44,008 nucleotides of DNA from Clostridia bacterium. GTDB taxonomy: Bacteria; Bacillota; Clostridia; Christensenellales; Aristaeellaceae. The DNA lies in contig JAFQOD010000030.1 of the NCBI GenBank assembly GCA_017395685.1, forward strand, positions 1 to 44,008, in the 5' to 3' direction. Shown one piece after another: positions 1-44,008 of this stretch. The translations under genes and the position numbers were made by a program. The notes beneath the pieces were generated by a model. It made no database searches and was not told the DNA's origin. It saw nothing but the letters and a program-made list of their open reading frames with translations. Every line of letters starts with the position of its first letter. Position 1 is the stretch's first letter.

Positions 1-154
1 AGGAGAAAAATTCTGGAGAATCATTTATGATTCGGGAAGAATTTTTCATTCCTATCAGATTTTCTGCCCGTGCTGCGAAGCAGCACAAGAAAATCTGCAT
101 GTCGAAAAAAATGATCCTTCATTTTTTTCGAGCGTGTTGACTTTGTCAACACGC
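1..154 (+). repeat. Hairpin-chain repeat, copy A (left end cut by window)
   Basis: A run of nested hairpins that recurs at 18962-19140 (opposite strand) and in divergent form at 43918-44008. Stem S1 pairs 1-14 with 38-53 (2-nt bulge) and encloses 18-23/28-33 with loop TTTA. S2 pairs 56-65 with 88-97 and encloses 70-76/80-86 with loop GAA. S3 pairs 102-114 with 119-131. S4 pairs 132-141 with 145-154. Copy B keeps the same stems with paired base changes. On this strand the chain runs directly into a terminator hairpin (155-185). Function unknown: a non-coding RNA, a mobile miniature element or an mRNA 3' structure are all possible. Confidence 0.75.
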
Positions 155-185
155 AGTCACCGGCATAACAGCCGGTGACTTTTTT
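155..185 (+). terminator. Intrinsic terminator ending the left-edge hairpin chain
   Basis: Ten-base perfect stem AGTCACCGGC (155-164) / GCCGGTGACT (171-180) with a 6-nt loop and a T6 tract. The T tract is on the plus side only, so it ends a plus-strand transcript arriving from the left of the window through repeat copy A, not the minus-strand gene at 223-570. Confidence 0.8.
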
Positions 186-222: not shown

Positions 223-570
223 TCAGCCCTTCTGAATCCATGTGTTCCAGGTGCTTTCGTCTGCGCCCAGGGTGACCTGCTCCCCATTGCGCACAATGGG
301 CAGCCGCAGAAACTGGGGATGCTCCAGCAGGCATTCCAATACATATTTTTCATCATCATTGTGGGCCACGGGATGGGAAAGGGCCCGGGGATTTTGACGA
401 TCCACCAGATTCAGCGCCCCCAGACGCCTTGCAAATAAAGCCAATTCCCGCTGGCCCAGCTTATGTTTTTTCAAATCCAGAATCTGATAAGGGATGCGCC
501 TTTCCTTGAAAAAGCGCTCCGCCTTCTGAGTATCAAAATTTTTCTTCAGGGAATAAATCTGGATGTTCAT
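223..570 (-). CDS. ArsC/Spx-family thioredoxin-fold protein
   Basis: A 115-residue protein of the arsenate reductase (ArsC)/Spx family. It opens with a beta strand and a loop MNIQIYSLKKNFDTQKAE, then the helix RFFKERRIPYQILDL, and has the family cis-proline motif LRLPIVR near residue 88. The CX5R (ArsC) or CXXC (Spx) active site is absent: the loop reads YSLKKNFDT with no cysteine. True arsenate reductase activity is therefore unlikely; it may be a regulatory or orphan member. The start ATG overlaps the rsfS stop (ATGA), so it is translationally coupled as the last gene of nadD-yqeK / rsfS. Family call good, function unknown. Confidence 0.8.
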   Translation of the reverse strand: MNIQIYSLKKNFDTQKAERFFKERRIPYQILDLKKHKLGQRELALFARRLGALNLVDRQNPRALSHPVAHNDDEKYVLECLLEHPQFLRLPIVRNGEQVTLGADESTWNTWIQKG

Positions 571-18511: not shown

Positions 18512-18961
18512 GTGAAAAACGCAAGGCAAACGGCAATCCTCAGCATCATTGAGCAATACGATGTGGAAACCCAGGAGGAGCTGGCCTCCCGTCTGCGGGA
18601 TATGGGCATTGTGGTCACCCAGGCCACCGTATCCCGGGATATCAAGGAGCTGCGGCTGCTGAAGGTGCTCTCCGGCAAGGGCGGCTATAAATATGCCACC
18701 GCCGATAAGGCGGAGCATGGGCTGTCCGATCGGTTTGTGCGCATGTTTGTGGATTCCGTTTTATCCATTACCTTCGCCGGCAATATCATCGTGATCAAGA
18801 CCCTCTCCGGCAGCGCCAATGTGGCCGCCGAGGCCATCGATTCCATGCGCTGGCCCGAAATTCTGGGCACCATGGCAGGGGATAATACCATCCTGGCCAT
18901 CGTACACGATGAAGCGGAAGCCGCCAAGATCGTGGATCGGTTTATGGAAATGCTCAAATAA
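18512..18961 (+). CDS. argR: Arginine repressor ArgR
   Basis: A 149-residue ArgR/AhrC, an arginine-dependent hexameric repressor or activator of arginine genes. N-terminal winged helix: RQTAILSIIEQYDVETQEEL, then TQATVSRDIKELRLLKV, the classic recognition helix. C-terminal arginine-binding and oligomer domain: GNIIVIKTLSGSANVAAEAI and ILGTMAGDNTILAIV. The start is GTG 18512, nine bases after GGAG overlapping the end of nadK. A hairpin-chain repeat (18962-19140) separates it from recN. Confidence 0.95.
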   Translation: MKNARQTAILSIIEQYDVETQEELASRLRDMGIVVTQATVSRDIKELRLLKVLSGKGGYKYATADKAEHGLSDRFVRMFVDSVLSITFAGNIIVIKTLSGSANVAAEAIDSMRWPEILGTMAGDNTILAIVHDEAEAAKIVDRFMEMLK

Positions 18962-19140
18962 GGCGGCATACGCCGCCTGCCGAAAAAATAAAAATTCATT
19001 TTTTCGGAAATGCAGATTTTCTTGTGCGGTAAACCGCACGGACAGAAAATCTGAAAGGAATGAAAAATTCTTCCCGCATCGTAAACGATTCTTCAGAATT
19101 TTTCTCCTCGCGGCGTACATGCCGCCGCTGCGGATTTCCA
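18962..19140 (-). repeat. Hairpin-chain repeat, copy B (between argR and recN)
   Basis: Matches copy A (1-154) on the opposite strand. In plus coordinates: S4 GGCGGC/GCCGCC 18962-18977, S3 18980-18989/18998-19007, S2 19013-19022/19044-19053 enclosing GTGCGG/CCGCAC, S1 19056-19071/19095-19108 enclosing ATCG/CGAT, and S0 GCGGCG/CGCCGC 19110-19128, followed by a flank shared with copy C. Compared with A, stem changes are paired (for example GTGCTGC/GCAGCAC against GTGCGG/CCGCAC). It lies immediately after the argR stop, so read-through to recN would transcribe it in the antisense sense. Confidence 0.8.
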
Positions 19141-19204: not shown

Positions 19205-20866
19205 ATGCTGGTTTCATTGACCATTCGCAATATCGCCCTGATGGATGAAATGCAGGTGGAATTTTCCAAGGGCCTGCATGTGCTCACCGGCGAAACGGGG
19301 GCAGGCAAATCCATTATCGTGGATGCGGTCACCCTGCTGCTGGGCGGCAGGGCGCAAAAAGAATTGATCCGCAACGGCTGCGATAAGGCCCGGGTGGAGG
19401 GGGTATTCGATCTTTCCGATTGTCCTTTAGTCCATGCCCTTCTGCAGGAGCATGATCTGGATGAAAACGGGGAAGAGCTGATTCTCTCCCGGGATATCAC
19501 CATCCAGGGCCGTTCCTCCTGCCGGGTAAACGGGGCGCTGATGCCCCTTTCCCAGTATCAGGCATTCACTGCGCTGCTGATGGATATCCACGGCCAGCAC
19601 GAGCATCAGTCCCTGATGGATGAAAAGCGCCATCTGGGTTTTTTGGATGCATCCGGGGATGAAAATCATCAGGCCCTGCTGCAAAAAATCAGGGCAGACA
19701 GCGCCGCCTGGAAGGAAAGCAGGGCCGCCCTGGACAAGCTGCAGAAGCAATCTGCCCAAGCCGCCGAACGGACGGAGCTTTTGCGCATCCGCCAGAAGGA
19801 ACTGAAAAATGCCCGTCTGGTGCCGGGTGAGGAAGAGGAGCTTGCCCGGGAACGGGATCGCTACCGCAATGTAGAAAAGATTGAATCGGGGCTCCGGGAG
19901 GCCTTTGACGCCGTATACGATGGGGTCAATCCTGCTGCGGAGGCCCTGCGGGATGCGGTAAATGCCCTTGCCCCCATCGAAAATCTGGATGATCAGTATG
20001 CCGCCCTCCGGGCCCGGCTGGACGGCCTGTATTATGAAGCGGAGGATATCGGCCTTTCCCTGCGGGATCTTCTGCGCAATCTGGATTCTGATCCCGACCG
20101 GCTGGAATATATCCAGGCCCGGCTGGATCTGATCCGCCGCCTTTCCCGGAAATACGGGGGCGCGGATACAAAAGAAATGGCGAAAAAGCTCACCGAAATT
20201 GAAGAAGAACTTTCCGCCATGGAAAATATCGATGATCTGATGGATGAGGCTGCGAAAAAGGAAAAATCAGCCGCACAGCAATATCAGCAAACCGCCCGGC
20301 TGCTTTCCGCCGCCCGCAAAGAACTGGCGGAAAAATTCCGGCAGGAGATGGAAATCCAGCTGCGGGATCTGAATATGGCGGGCACAAAATTCCATGTTTC
20401 CCTGCCCCCCTGTCCTCCCGGTCCCCAGGGCATGGAAACCGCCGCCTTCCAGATCGCCCCCAACCGGGGGGAAGAGCTGCAGCCCCTATCCAAAATCGCC
20501 TCCGGGGGCGAGCTTTCCCGCCTGATGCTGGCCATCAAATCGGTGGCGGCCAAGCGGGAAGGGGTGCCCTCCATGATCTTTGACGAAATCGATACCGGCA
20601 TTTCCGGCCGGGCCGCCCAGGTAGTAGGCGAAAAAATGGCCGCCATCGGAAAGGAACGCCAGGTGCTCTGCGTCACCCATCTGCAGCAGATTGCCGCCCT
20701 GGCCGATCATCATTTCCTGGTGGAAAAATCCTTCGACGGGGAGCGTACCCGCACCCGGCTGACCCCCCTCACCGGGGAAGCCCGCGTGGCTGAAATCGCC
20801 CGAATGCTGGGCGGCGATGATGAAAGCGCCAAGGCCCACGCCCGGGAAATGCTGAAAATGAAATAA
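19205..20866 (+). CDS. recN: DNA repair protein RecN
   Basis: A 553-residue SMC-like ATPase that acts early in double-strand-break repair. The N-terminal half-ATPase starts MLVSLTIRNIALMDEMQVEF with Walker A GETGAGKS; long coiled coil from about 150 to 350; C-terminal half with signature ASGGELSRLMLAI, Walker B MIFDEIDTGISG and VTHLQQIAALADHH. Length matches the family. The ATG follows TGAGG by seven bases. A terminator hairpin with a T-rich tail follows at 20875. Confidence 0.95.
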   Translation: MLVSLTIRNIALMDEMQVEFSKGLHVLTGETGAGKSIIVDAVTLLLGGRAQKELIRNGCDKARVEGVFDLSDCPLVHALLQEHDLDENGEELILSRDITIQGRSSCRVNGALMPLSQYQAFTALLMDIHGQHEHQSLMDEKRHLGFLDASGDENHQALLQKIRADSAAWKESRAALDKLQKQSAQAAERTELLRIRQKELKNARLVPGEEEELARERDRYRNVEKIESGLREAFDAVYDGVNPAAEALRDAVNALAPIENLDDQYAALRARLDGLYYEAEDIGLSLRDLLRNLDSDPDRLEYIQARLDLIRRLSRKYGGADTKEMAKKLTEIEEELSAMENIDDLMDEAAKKEKSAAQQYQQTARLLSAARKELAEKFRQEMEIQLRDLNMAGTKFHVSLPPCPPGPQGMETAAFQIAPNRGEELQPLSKIASGGELSRLMLAIKSVAAKREGVPSMIFDEIDTGISGRAAQVVGEKMAAIGKERQVLCVTHLQQIAALADHHFLVEKSFDGERTRTRLTPLTGEARVAEIARMLGGDDESAKAHAREMLKMK

Positions 20867-32090: not shown

Positions 32091-33410
32091 ATGAAAAAGC
32101 TTATCGCTCTGATCGCAGTTCTGGCCCTGTGCCTTTCCTGCGTTCCCGGTCTGGCTGAAGGCAATGACAACCTCAAGTCTGCCAAGGCTTACATCTATCA
32201 GCTGTACAAGAACCCCACCCGCACCGATATCAAGTCCACCCCCGCTGATTTCGACGTGCTGGCCAAAGTGCCCGTGGACGGCGTGGAATATGCCGTGGAA
32301 TGGAGCACCGATACCGAAGCTGTGAAGGTTGTTGTGAAGGAAGACGGCGCTGTCACCATCGATGTGGATGAAGCCAGCACCTCCGAAATCATCTACACCC
32401 TCACCGCCACCGTGAAGGATGCCGAAGGCAATGCCGAAGCCGTTTCCTTCCAGCGCAAGCTGCCCGCCTCCCTCACCGGCATGAGCTATGCCCAGATCGT
32501 GGATTATGCTTACACCCTGGTGGACGGCGAAAAGACCGTCAAGACCTATCGTCTCTTCGGCACCATCGTGAAGATCCCCACCCCCTACAGCGAACAGTAT
32601 GGCAACATCACCGTGGATATCGCCATCAAGGGCAAGGAAGATATGCCCATCCAGTGCTACCGTCTCAAGGGCGAAGGCGCTGCTGCCCTGCAGGTTGGCG
32701 ATCAGATCACCGTGGAAGGCTACATCAAGAATTACAAGGGCCTGATCGAATTCGATTCCGGCTGCGTTCTTGTCGGCCTGGGCGAAATCATTTCCCAGAA
32801 GCCCATCCTGGAAGCTGCCTACAAACTGCTGGACGGCGAAAAGATGAGCACCGCCACCGCCCTGAAGGGCACCATCATCAAGATCCCCACCGCCTGGAGC
32901 GAAGAATACGGCAACATCACCGTGGATATGGTTGTGGACGGCGTGGAAGATATGCCCGTTGAATGCTACCGTCTCACCGGCGAAGGCGCTGCCACCCTGG
33001 CTGTGGGCGACGAAATCGCTGTTGTGGGCACCATCAAGAATTACAAGGGCCTGATCGAATTCGATAAGGGCTGCAAGCTGATCCCCGTGGGCACCGAAAA
33101 TGACGTGCGCACCGCCATCAATGCTTACACCCTCACCGACGGCGAAGCCAAGCCCGCTGCTTCCACCATGACCGGCGTCATCGTTGCCATCCCCACCGCC
33201 TACAGCGAACAGTATGGCAATATCACCGTTGACATCGTGCCCGGCGGCCTGGAAGAATACAAGGTTCAGTGCTACCGTCTCTCCGGCGAAGGCGCCGCTG
33301 ATCTGCAGGTTGGCGATACCATCACCGTTACCGGCACCATCAAGAATTACAAGGGCACCATCGAATTCGATAAGGGCTGCACCCTGGATAACGTGGTAAA
33401 GGCTCAGTAA
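32091..33410 (+). CDS. Secreted protein with Ig-like domain and three tandem OB-fold repeats
   Basis: A 439-residue exported protein. Signal peptide to about 22 (PGLA then EGND); the Cys residues are not in a lipobox. Residues 45-125 look like a bacterial Ig-like domain (YAVEWSTDTEAVKVVV...IIYTLTATVKDAEGN). Then three repeats of about 94 residues: 137-230, 238-333 and 340-433. Each has a lead helix ending in L(V/L)DGE or LTDGE, GTIVKIPTPYSEQYGNITVD-like strands, a conserved CYRL(K/T/S)GEGAA and VGD..(T/A)V.GTIKNYKG.IEFD.GC. The same fold ends the preceding nuclease protein, so the pair probably acts together outside the cell. RBS AAGGAG is strong and codons are highly biased. No catalytic residues seen; ligand-binding role inferred. 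Confidence 0.85.
   Translation: MKKLIALIAVLALCLSCVPGLAEGNDNLKSAKAYIYQLYKNPTRTDIKSTPADFDVLAKVPVDGVEYAVEWSTDTEAVKVVVKEDGAVTIDVDEASTSEIIYTLTATVKDAEGNAEAVSFQRKLPASLTGMSYAQIVDYAYTLVDGEKTVKTYRLFGTIVKIPTPYSEQYGNITVDIAIKGKEDMPIQCYRLKGEGAAALQVGDQITVEGYIKNYKGLIEFDSGCVLVGLGEIISQKPILEAAYKLLDGEKMSTATALKGTIIKIPTAWSEEYGNITVDMVVDGVEDMPVECYRLTGEGAATLAVGDEIAVVGTIKNYKGLIEFDKGCKLIPVGTENDVRTAINAYTLTDGEAKPAASTMTGVIVAIPTAYSEQYGNITVDIVPGGLEEYKVQCYRLSGEGAADLQVGDTITVTGTIKNYKGTIEFDKGCTLDNVVKAQ
32499..33389 (+). repeat. Three tandem in-gene repeats encoding OB-fold units
   Basis: Units of about 285 nt at 32499-32780, 32802-33089 and 33108-33389. Units 1 and 2 share an identical 33-nt block (32724-32756 and 33033-33065); unit 3 has the same block with a few changes at 33339-33371. 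This points to duplication within the gene, with codon bias helping to keep identity. Confidence 0.85.
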
Positions 33411-41625: not shown

Positions 41626-42507
41626 ATGAATGCATTTGCAGATTCCATCTTTTCCCTGCTGTTCAGCTGGCTCAGGGCCCTGGTGCAGGGCATCTGGGCA
41701 TCGGTAAGCGCAGGCAATTTCAGCGGCTTTTTCACCTGGCTGGGGGATCACTGGCTGTGGCTGGCCCTGTTCGTGGCCCTGTGCGCCACCATCATTGATT
41801 TTCTCATCTGGATGATCCGCTGGCGGCCCTATCTGGTATGGAAAACAAAGATACGCCGTCTGATCCGCTTCTTCAAATATGGAAAAACAGATCATCAGGC
41901 GCAGCAGCATTTCTATCAGGGGTATCAGGAGGGCGTGGCCCTGGATATGCCCCAGGAGGATTTTGCGCCGGATGAAGCCCTTCAGCCCGCCTATGCTTCC
42001 CCCTATGATTATGGCCGCAAATGGGATCAGCCCGCCCCTATGCAGGCGCAGCCTACGGCCCCCTATCAGGCAGCCCCGGCCTTTGATCCCATGCCCTATC
42101 AGCCCGCAGCGCAGCCTGCCTATGCTCCCCGGGAAACTGCCAGGGATGCGGATGCATTCCAGCCGGCTCCCCTGGAAGAGCCCCCTGCCGCCCATTTCTT
42201 CCCCAAGCCCCAGGGCTATGAGCCGCCGCCCCTCAATACCTCCACCCGGGTGCATGGGGGCCAGGCATCCGATATGCCCGCCGCCCGGCGCAAGCGCCGC
42301 AGCGATAAATATGATAAGCAAAAGGCATCCTGGCATCAGCGCCTGATGGCGGATGACGAGGAAGATTCTCTGCTGGATGGGCTGCCCCCGGCAGTGGATA
42401 AGGAGCAGGCCTTCCATCAGCCCGTCTATCCCCAGCATTCCGATTCTCTCTACGCTGCCTGGCAGCGCCCCGGCACACAAAACCAAGGAACGGATCGACA
42501 AGCATGA
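41626..42507 (+). CDS. Unknown membrane protein with Pro/Gln/Tyr-rich disordered tail
   Basis: A 293-residue protein that I do not recognise. An N-terminal region with two hydrophobic helices (about 8-30 and 42-66, LWLALFVALCATIIDFLIWM) leads into a basic segment RRLIRFFKYGK, then about 200 residues of low complexity rich in Pro, Gln, Ala and Tyr (QPAPMQAQPTAPYQAAP, PYQPAAQPAY) ending in a Lys/Arg block KRRSDKYDKQKASW and an acidic stretch ADDEEDSLL. The tail is probably cytoplasmic and disordered. Its place in the cdaA-cdaR operon suggests an envelope link. It overlaps the methyltransferase gene by 4 nt. Confidence 0.75.
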   Translation: MNAFADSIFSLLFSWLRALVQGIWASVSAGNFSGFFTWLGDHWLWLALFVALCATIIDFLIWMIRWRPYLVWKTKIRRLIRFFKYGKTDHQAQQHFYQGYQEGVALDMPQEDFAPDEALQPAYASPYDYGRKWDQPAPMQAQPTAPYQAAPAFDPMPYQPAAQPAYAPRETARDADAFQPAPLEEPPAAHFFPKPQGYEPPPLNTSTRVHGGQASDMPAARRKRRSDKYDKQKASWHQRLMADDEEDSLLDGLPPAVDKEQAFHQPVYPQHSDSLYAAWQRPGTQNQGTDRQA

Positions 42508-43820
42508 GTGAAAAATTTCCCTTTCCCGAAGGCTGGATCGAGCAGCTGAATTCCCTGCTGGGGCATTCGCTGCCCGATTTTTTGCATAGCTATGATGCAG
42601 CCCCTGCCCGGGGTATCCGCATGCGGCCGGGAATCAATCCCCCGCCTGATGCAGGCAACCCCATTCCCTGGGGGGAAAACGGCTATTACCTGCCATTGGA
42701 ATCCCTTGCCGGGGCTGTGCCCGCCCATGAAGCCGGGGCCTATTACCTGCAGGAGCCCAGCGCCATGGCCGCTGCCGCTGCCCTGCGCCCATGTCCCGGG
42801 GAAAAGGTATTGGATCTGTGCGCCGCTCCCGGCGGCAAAAGCACCCAGCTGGGCGCCTTTCTGCAGGGCCGGGGCACCCTGATCTGCAATGAGCCAGTGC
42901 CTGGCCGTGCCCAGATTCTGGCCCGGAATATTGAGCGTATGGGCATCAGCAATGCCATCGTGGTCAATCATCTGCCGGAGGAACTGAGCCCCCGGTGGCC
43001 CGGCTGGTTCGATAAAATTCTGGTGGACGCCCCCTGCTCCGGGGAGGGCATGTTCCGCCGCCACCCGGAAACGCGGCAGGAATGGCATGCCGCTTCTCCC
43101 GCCGGCTGCGCCCAGCGGCAAAGCCACATCCTCTCCCATGCGGCCCGGATGCTGCGGCCGGGAGGAATCATGGCATACAGCACCTGCACCTTCAATCCCA
43201 TAGAGAATGAAGGGGTGGTGCAGGAATTTCTCCGGGATCATCCCGAATTTTCCCTCCTTCCCTTTGCCCTTCCCGGCATCGGGGCATGCCAGGGGATGAT
43301 GCGGCTGTGGCCCCATCTGATCCGGGGAGAAGGACATTTTGTGGCGCTGCTGCAAAAAACTGAGGCCGCCCCGGATGCGCCGATTAAGAAGAAAGAAAAA
43401 CAGCCGGGCAGTGGCATGGCTATCCCGGATAAGCATCAGGCCGCCCTGGCTGCGGATTTTCTGCGGGAGCATTTCGATCTGCCCTTGCTTCCCAATGCCC
43501 TTTTTGCCAGCCATATCACCCAGGCCCCGGAATGCCCGCCCCTGCAGGGGATAAAGGTGCTGCGGCTGGGGCTGCATTTGGGGGAAGTAAAGGGCAAAAT
43601 CTTTGCCCCGGATCACGCTCTGGCCCTGGCCCATCCCTGCAAAAAGCGGCTGGAAGTGGATATGGATGCCGCCCGGGCTTATCAAAATGGCCAGGTGCTG
43701 CCCTGCGGAGAAAAAATGAAGGGCTGGTTTACCCCCTGCCTGGATGGCCTGCCCCTGGGCTGGGGAAAGGCCAGCGACGGGCAACTGAAAAATCACTATC
43801 CCAAGGGCTTGCGCAAATAA
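42504..43820 (+). CDS. RsmF-like rRNA (cytosine-C5-)-methyltransferase
   Basis: A 438-residue NOL1/NOP2/Sun-family m5C methyltransferase. SAM-binding site VLDLCAAPGGKSTQLGAFL (about 97-115); catalytic motif IV LVDAPCSGEGMFRR and motif VI AYSTCTFNPIENEGVV with the nucleophile Cys. The C-terminal third (about 300-438) is the RsmF-type RNA-binding region ending in a PUA-like domain (LPCGEKMKGWFTPCLDGLPLGWGK). The target is probably 16S rRNA, but the exact base is not predictable. Last gene of the cdaA operon; a hairpin at 43841 follows. Confidence 0.92.
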   Translation: MSEKFPFPEGWIEQLNSLLGHSLPDFLHSYDAAPARGIRMRPGINPPPDAGNPIPWGENGYYLPLESLAGAVPAHEAGAYYLQEPSAMAAAAALRPCPGEKVLDLCAAPGGKSTQLGAFLQGRGTLICNEPVPGRAQILARNIERMGISNAIVVNHLPEELSPRWPGWFDKILVDAPCSGEGMFRRHPETRQEWHAASPAGCAQRQSHILSHAARMLRPGGIMAYSTCTFNPIENEGVVQEFLRDHPEFSLLPFALPGIGACQGMMRLWPHLIRGEGHFVALLQKTEAAPDAPIKKKEKQPGSGMAIPDKHQAALAADFLREHFDLPLLPNALFASHITQAPECPPLQGIKVLRLGLHLGEVKGKIFAPDHALALAHPCKKRLEVDMDAARAYQNGQVLPCGEKMKGWFTPCLDGLPLGWGKASDGQLKNHYPKGLRK

Positions 43821-43840
43821 TCAATTGCAAAAAACACAAA

Positions 43841-43863
43841 AATGACCGGTTTCAGCGGTCATT
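43841..43863 (+). terminator. Terminator hairpin of cdaA operon
   Basis: Stem AATGACCG (43841-43848) / CGGTCATT (43856-43863), with a short T-poor tail. A second perfect hairpin GTCGAAGGGC / GCCCTTCGAC with loop CGCA lies at 43892-43915, just before repeat copy C. Confidence 0.6.
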
Positions 43864-43917
43864 TCAAACTGTCAAAAAACCCCTGGGATGCGTCGAAGGG
43901 CCGCAGCCCTTCGACTT

Positions 43918-44008
43918 TGAATCCGCAGCCGGCGACATGTGCGGCGGCGAGGAGCAAAAGGATTTTGTTTCCTATATCAATTTACGACCGTAAAAATAGG
44001 TTTTTCAG
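43918..44008 (+). repeat. Hairpin-chain repeat, copy C (divergent, right end cut by window)
   Basis: Begins with a stretch closely matching copy B: AATCCGCAGC, a GC-rich hairpin GCCG-CG/CG-CGGC around ACATGTG, and CGAGGAG at 43948-43954. After that it departs from A and B: the S1 position holds CCTAT / ATAGG around TTACG/GTAA, and ends with TTTTTCAG, where A and B have TTTCAG starting S2. The rest lies outside the window. Plus orientation, downstream of the RsmF-like gene. Confidence 0.6.

Follow-up and report, generated by a model that had tools for sequence, protein, structure and literature searches.

Short hairpin-chain mobile elements of Clostridia lie in intrinsic-terminator hairpins that are duplicated whole at their borders

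The intergenic repeats described here form a family of mobile elements that are short and non-autonomous and consist of about six hairpins in a chain. They sit in the hairpins of intrinsic terminators, and the whole hairpin is found directly duplicated at the borders of the element. They are probably miniature transposable elements moved in trans by a DDE transposase of the IS1182 type. The window, by which we mean the whole stretch of 44,008 nucleotides analysed, is contig C26 of the draft assembly G000 and has an element at each end, A at the left and C at the right, together with a diverged internal copy, B:

1..156, minus strand: copy A, an element reading right to left, truncated by the contig end; the element ends at 156
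2-53, 56-97, 102-131 and 132-154: hairpins P4, P3, P2 and P1 (the last with the left terminal repeat) of copy A
157..179, no strand assigned: terminator hairpin adjoining copy A, with a T run after it; this is one half of the target-site duplication, and its partner is on contig C17
18962..19140, plus strand: copy B, a diverged element
18962-18977, 18980-19007, 19013-19053, 19056-19109 and 19110-19128: hairpins P1-like, P2, P3, P4 and P5 of copy B
43840..43864, no strand assigned: terminator hairpin adjoining copy C; this is one half of the target-site duplication, and its partner is G000:C75:3596-3618
43865..44008, minus strand: copy C, of a different subfamily, truncated by the contig end; it holds part of P3, P4, P5, P6 and the right terminal repeat CAAACTGTCAAAAAACC, which starts at 43865

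Within the window the covariance model gave 117.7 bits to copy B (itself one of the 31 rows used to build the model), 68.1 to A and 48.0 to C, the next best score being 21.4. The open reading frames 223-570 (minus strand) and 42504-43820 (plus strand) run towards elements A and C respectively, whilst copy B lies between a plus-strand frame ending at 18961 and another starting at 19205, named argR and recN in the original prediction. That prediction described A and B as inverted matches, and the arms 1-73 and 19036-19108 are indeed 92% complementary, with 84% for 83-127 and 18983-19027. The paired changes it named are present: GTGCTGC/GCAGCAC to GTGCGG/CCGCAC at the P3 tip (its S2), T-A to C-G at the end of P2 (S3) and A-T to G-C at an inner pair of P4 (S1). 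Its S4, which is P1, reads GCGTGTTGAC-AAA-GTCAACACGC against GGCGGC-ATAC-GCCGCC, a different sequence that keeps its stem. Compensation is nevertheless incomplete, since in P4 of copy B GAATC has become GCATC opposite GATTC and is left unpaired. The terminator said to end copy A is real, with its hairpin at 157-179 and its T run, but it is the duplicated insertion target and lies outside the element. The hairpin beside copy C matches its C75 partner, which adjoins the left end of such an element, at 22 of 23 bases (one mismatch); inspection by eye also shows an overlap between the ends of C75 and C26. At the flanks and ends of copy B, neither a target duplication nor recognisable terminal repeats were seen by eye. 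Elsewhere in the window, 32496-33398 comprises three tandem repeats of about 306 bp inside the frame 32091-33410, which thus encodes an internally repeated protein; they show 78% and 73% identity to a 225-nt reference stretch.

A search of the genome (2.83 Mb in 79 contigs) revealed many copies beyond those first noted. There are 16 BLAST matches to copy B, of which 14 lie within 34 nt of a contig end, indicating that the repeat broke the assembly; the own-genome copies are 99-100% identical over the stretches they share. One of them, on C31, has lost its interior. The element runs from a left terminal repeat folded into P1, through P2, P3, P4, P5 and P6, to a right terminal repeat. For 12 of 15 loci the length could be measured (three were not measurable by script), and 11 of the 12 span 221-245 bp and one 317 bp, leaving no room for a transposase. 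P3 carries an asymmetric internal loop with T on the 5′ side and GGNC on the 3′ side (a feature for which rows were selected), P4 has AGGA/TCCT close to its base plus a bulge, and P5 is GGCGTACAYGCCGCC in many copies. The ends fit, by eye, a consensus of about CAGnSYRTYRAMAAA, from which several deviate; the left ends in the own genome start CTG, and the right tail of these copies had no match in relatives. The chain's own hairpins can serve as targets: at L087 (G016:C146) an element is seen, by eye, inserted in the P3 tip hairpin of another. Hairpin loops also tolerate insertions: in L144, L158, L095 and L127, extra hairpin-bearing sequence lies within a loop or separates P5 from P6. At L016 (G000:C60, about 2446-2506) a fragment of the repeat adjoins several copies of another intergenic hairpin repeat, of the GGGAGGCATTAATCCC type.

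By BLAST, elements occur in 23 of 60 genomes, and by the covariance model R1 with strict filters in 17 of 297 genomes of the order, where the weakest rows may be chance; both counts include the own genome. A scan for exact P5 returned 94 stretches, all 94 from Clostridia, Clostridiales or Christensenella-like MAGs, which points to Christensenellales as the order. Phages and plasmids gave no BLAST match to one own-genome copy used as query.

The flanks of the elements reveal where they insert. When eight left-end flanks of the own genome were compared with seven right-end flanks, five pairs (C35/C20, C46/C3, C30/C63, C26, the window, with C17, and C36/C60) shared a whole hairpin of 23-29 bp lying no more than 1 nt from the element. 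Their best-match scores were 21-29, against 11 or less for every other pair. The C33/C4 flanks have 11 nt in common around a short palindrome, and those of C41 and C29 found no partner among the flanks compared. By eye, the left hairpin has an A run before it in 7 of 8 cases and the right hairpin a T run after it in all 7, the arrangement of two-way terminators. These duplications are read across contig ends; the cases contained in a single contig come from other genomes. There, a blind test took 110 model hits, excluded 23 (short flank, duplicate or N) and compared 200 nt on each side of the remaining 87 elements. A direct-repeat score of at least 18 was reached by 15 of the 87, as against 1 of 435 swapped pairs. 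In twelve of the 15 the repeat is a hairpin at the element borders, and nine of these twelve have terminal repeats judged recognisable at both ends; L236 and L099 have none that is clear and L064 only the right one. The other three were left uncounted: L136 has no hairpin, in L095 the element's own P1 is repeated, and in L238 the repeat spans two hairpins and its place is unclear. The remaining 72 elements had no direct repeat scoring 18 or more, and older copies stand without a target duplication.

A wider scan of 117 anchors, from which eight rows were dropped, served for locating cases, whilst counting relied on the blind test; in the scan's control 9 of 351 swapped pairs scored at least 20, a high rate because its windows held element sequence. 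It added six border-hairpin cases, namely L128, L162, L131, L144 and L171, all from outside the blind-test input, and L077, which that test had excluded for its short flank. For the gene beside the C35 element an orthologous empty site was sought in ten genomes of the genus; the best hits of six were inspected, the neighbours differ and none could be shown. At L265 (G014), by eye, imperfect copies of a single palindrome enclose the remnant of another such element; the gene that ends there is the one adjoining the C35 element in the own genome. An unoccupied hairpin at G000:C55:37733-37755 (L272), between A-rich and T-rich sequence, differs from the duplicated terminator of copy C at two positions. 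It resembles that terminator without being an orthologous empty site, and the two are perhaps members of a family of similar terminators.

The original prediction placed the differences mainly in loops or in paired changes, and paired changes are borne out across the family. In alignment A2 (108 distinct rows) all 29 modelled pairs have changed on both sides, mainly by Watson-Crick swaps, and 95.2% of cells pair as compared with 68.7% after shuffling. The covariation score is 0.591 against 0.146 for shuffled alignments and at most 0.104 for slid partners. A2 was fitted to the model, with P3, though not P4, a selection criterion; the P3 counts are inflated because a paired P3 with T/GGNC was the criterion for admitting rows to A1, and P5 is under-varied because the loci from the exact-P5 scan were chosen by exact P5. 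Relatives keep the pairing, with some unpaired changes, as in copy B and in single-base changes at the P3 tip of own-genome copies. The pairing is thus real, and the level at which it is kept leans to DNA. Over all pairs there are 141 G-T and 58 A-C among 2962 cells. With only pair 103-212 set aside, for register (in 26 of its 28 G-T rows a C stands next on the 3′ side and could take over the pairing), the figures are 112 and 58 of 2855. When pair 13-72, the internal-loop T/G that may be a real U-G, is set aside as well, they are 33 and 50 of 2763, so that G-T is not the commoner. The complementary strand folds slightly better than the annotated one (mean −50.4 versus −48.2 kcal/mol; lower in 73 of 102), which, with the predominance of Watson-Crick swaps, suggests that pairing may be kept at the DNA level. 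Wobble is not absent, however: minimum-energy RNA folds contain 202 G-U among 3805 pairs on the annotated strand and 167 among 3694 on the other. These wobble and folding comparisons were run on elements alone; the 51 loci hold six tRNA genes.

The chain may stay palindromic because folded DNA is under selection, because RNA is, or because one arm serves as template for the other. It is conceivable, though we would not count on it, that selection plays no part and that template switching between the arms homogenises the inverted repeats, a change in one arm being copied to the other. Homogenisation of arms and inversion of spacers by such switching are described in the available parts of two reports (PMC8604942, PMC7202029). 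The scarcity of wobble intermediates and the equal folding of the two strands speak for it, as do nine loops that occur in either orientation between identical arms, against 0 and 1 in controls. Only three of these nine are clear, and six involve only L239 and L255, where both strands match. Arm copying should, however, erase the asymmetric internal loop of P3 and the overall architecture, which survive large changes of sequence, and the young copies of the own genome bear one-sided changes.

Selection on a functional structured RNA, a small RNA or 3′ UTR module that is mobile or rides on a mobile element, seems to us rather unlikely. Covariation at 29 of 29 pairs would fit such an RNA, and the T opposite GGNC is kept while the surrounding helices change; this conserved T faces G in 79 rows, where it could form a U-G pair, and insertion in a terminator would place the element in transcripts. 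On the other hand, it is the complementary strand that folds better and G-T is not commoner than A-C once the two pairs are set aside; an RNA from the other strand could still fit. Furthermore, as originally predicted, no known RNA family was recognised: Rfam 15, searched with the window and 20 loci at gathering score and with 11 loci in E-value mode, gave no match on an element at gathering score. The E-value searches returned six rows, none of them anywhere near the gathering score; the Clostridiales-2 row (20.6 bits against a gathering score of 58.6, E 1.2) overlaps, on the opposite strand, the element of L049. The same locus, which comes from a relative, has at 994-1376 a T-box match below threshold (31.7 bits against a gathering score of 93, E 0.0014).

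The case for an IS1182-type mover comes from two insertion sequences of the element's own genus. L190 encodes a transposase of 479 aa (NF033551, 431.3 bits, cut-off 270) and has the ends CAGACCATCAACAAAG and CAACCCGTCAACAAAC; L189 has an open reading frame of 408 aa (357.8 bits, same cut-off) and the ends CAGACCATCGGCAAAG and CAGACCATCTTCAAAC. Each is flanked on both sides by a duplicated hairpin, of 33 bp for L190 and 22 bp for L189, and L190 lies between reading frames that end towards it. In another family of the order, L213 is flanked on each side by an imperfect palindrome of 16 bp, the left one 4 nt away from the end. By eye, the terminal inverted repeats of the elements resemble the ends of L189, L190 and L213 (CAGCCTGTCGAAAA). 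The similar ends and the same duplication of a whole hairpin make an IS1182-type transposase the likely mover. Matches to PF13751 occur in 11 of 29 genomes of the genus, nine above cut-off, and NF033551 matches 6 of 17 genomes with a model hit versus 38 of 280 others (Fisher one-sided p = 0.026). Three family models detected no IS1182-type transposase in the own draft assembly, nor was one found in five of six other element-bearing drafts searched, so that we infer the mover rather than observe it. Among 39 IS1182-type loci scanned, many of them fragments, 36 had no direct repeat of at least 15 beside their ends, and the loci of the NF033551 comparison other than L190 and L189 showed no such flanking repeat.

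The several element-rich genomes in which no IS1182-type transposase was found are what one would expect if another enzyme (a transposase, reverse transcriptase or Cas1-like integrase) likewise attacked both feet of the hairpin. We regard this as improbable, given that the end consensus and the whole-hairpin duplication are common to the elements and the two IS1182 insertion sequences of the genus. A stationary, vertically inherited repeat that adjoins terminators by chance is barely credible: copy B and most distant copies show no visible duplication, but site-specific duplicated hairpins, the 99-100% identity of own-genome copies and the nested insertion at L087 contradict it. The original suggestion of self-complementary mobile DNA is upheld by the terminal repeats, the target duplications and the near-identical copies, and an IS1182-type transposase remains our preferred mover.

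For REP/BIME repeats with RAYT, a class marked by a REP palindrome with its tetranucleotide and by a Y1 transposase, flanking duplication of a whole hairpin is not expected. The EFAR repeats of Enterococcus faecalis are short modular stem-loop chains inserted into stem-loop targets, and Efa-1 is probably the same repeat. EFAR is found in one distant species and deletes most of its target stem-loop, whereas the elements described here duplicate theirs and so do not belong to it. Efa-1, in the available account, is 163 bp long with 65 copies and forms a double hairpin (PMC2267715). MITEPye1 of Paracoccus yeei, according to the accessible part of its description, is non-autonomous and mostly intergenic with IS1182-like terminal repeats, but has 4-bp direct repeats, as opposed to whole hairpins, and a low copy number of 1-3 (PMC11578231). 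The pneumococcal SPRITE, BOX and RUP are small structured repeats, BOX being modular and SPRITE enriched at the 3′ ends of genes; SPRITE resembles a terminator itself, and in the portion of the report available no target duplication could be established for it (PMC3049150).

The closest parallel is with IS1272 and TnSha1, staphylococcal members of the IS1182 family, which the available sections of two papers describe as targeting stem-loops, including terminators, without a sequence consensus (PMC5678879, PMC4923244). They thus share with our elements the transposase family of the presumed mover and the use of stem-loop targets. According to the same sections, however, they delete the target stem-loop and make no target duplication, whereas here the stem-loop is duplicated whole and retained on both sides of the element, which rules out IS1272-like replacement. 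Duplication of a whole stem-loop is drawn as an alternative pathway in one of these papers (Figure 13, b; PMC5678879). MITEs derived from IS1182 (PMC11578231) and stem-loop targeting by IS1182 members (PMC5678879, PMC4923244) are already known, as far as the accessible text of these sources goes. In the literature searched, in which subscription journals were thinly covered, we found neither these repeats nor an order-wide covarying hairpin chain described, and no IS1182-type element reported to duplicate a whole terminator.

We envisage that the transposase would recognise the element ends (about CAGnSYRTYRAMAAA) and that in the target it would read not the sequence but the shape of the stem-loop of an intrinsic terminator. 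If the element were joined on the two strands at the hairpin's outer feet and the gaps were then repaired, the whole hairpin would remain on both sides; by analogy, the strand chemistry may be the attack at stem-loop feet of pathway b in the available part of PMC5678879. Because the hairpin copy adjoining the element lacks a T run on the side that faces the element, convergent transcription is expected to continue across the element and to end at the far hairpin, and the element would join the 3′ untranslated region without loss of termination. More speculatively, and with considerable doubt on our part, the elements could form an order-wide mobile class in which the unit conserved is a DNA shape, namely palindromes in a chain, kept paired on both strands. 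The transposase would then read folded DNA in the target (terminator stem-loops, duplicated whole) and perhaps also in the hairpins of the element itself, on which further copies can land.

In conclusion, these elements provide natural cases of whole stem-loop duplication, seemingly by the transposase family of IS1272, which itself deletes its target. They suggest how an element may settle at gene 3′ ends while termination is preserved, and the set of covarying palindromes could help to tell selection on folded DNA or RNA from homogenisation by template switching.
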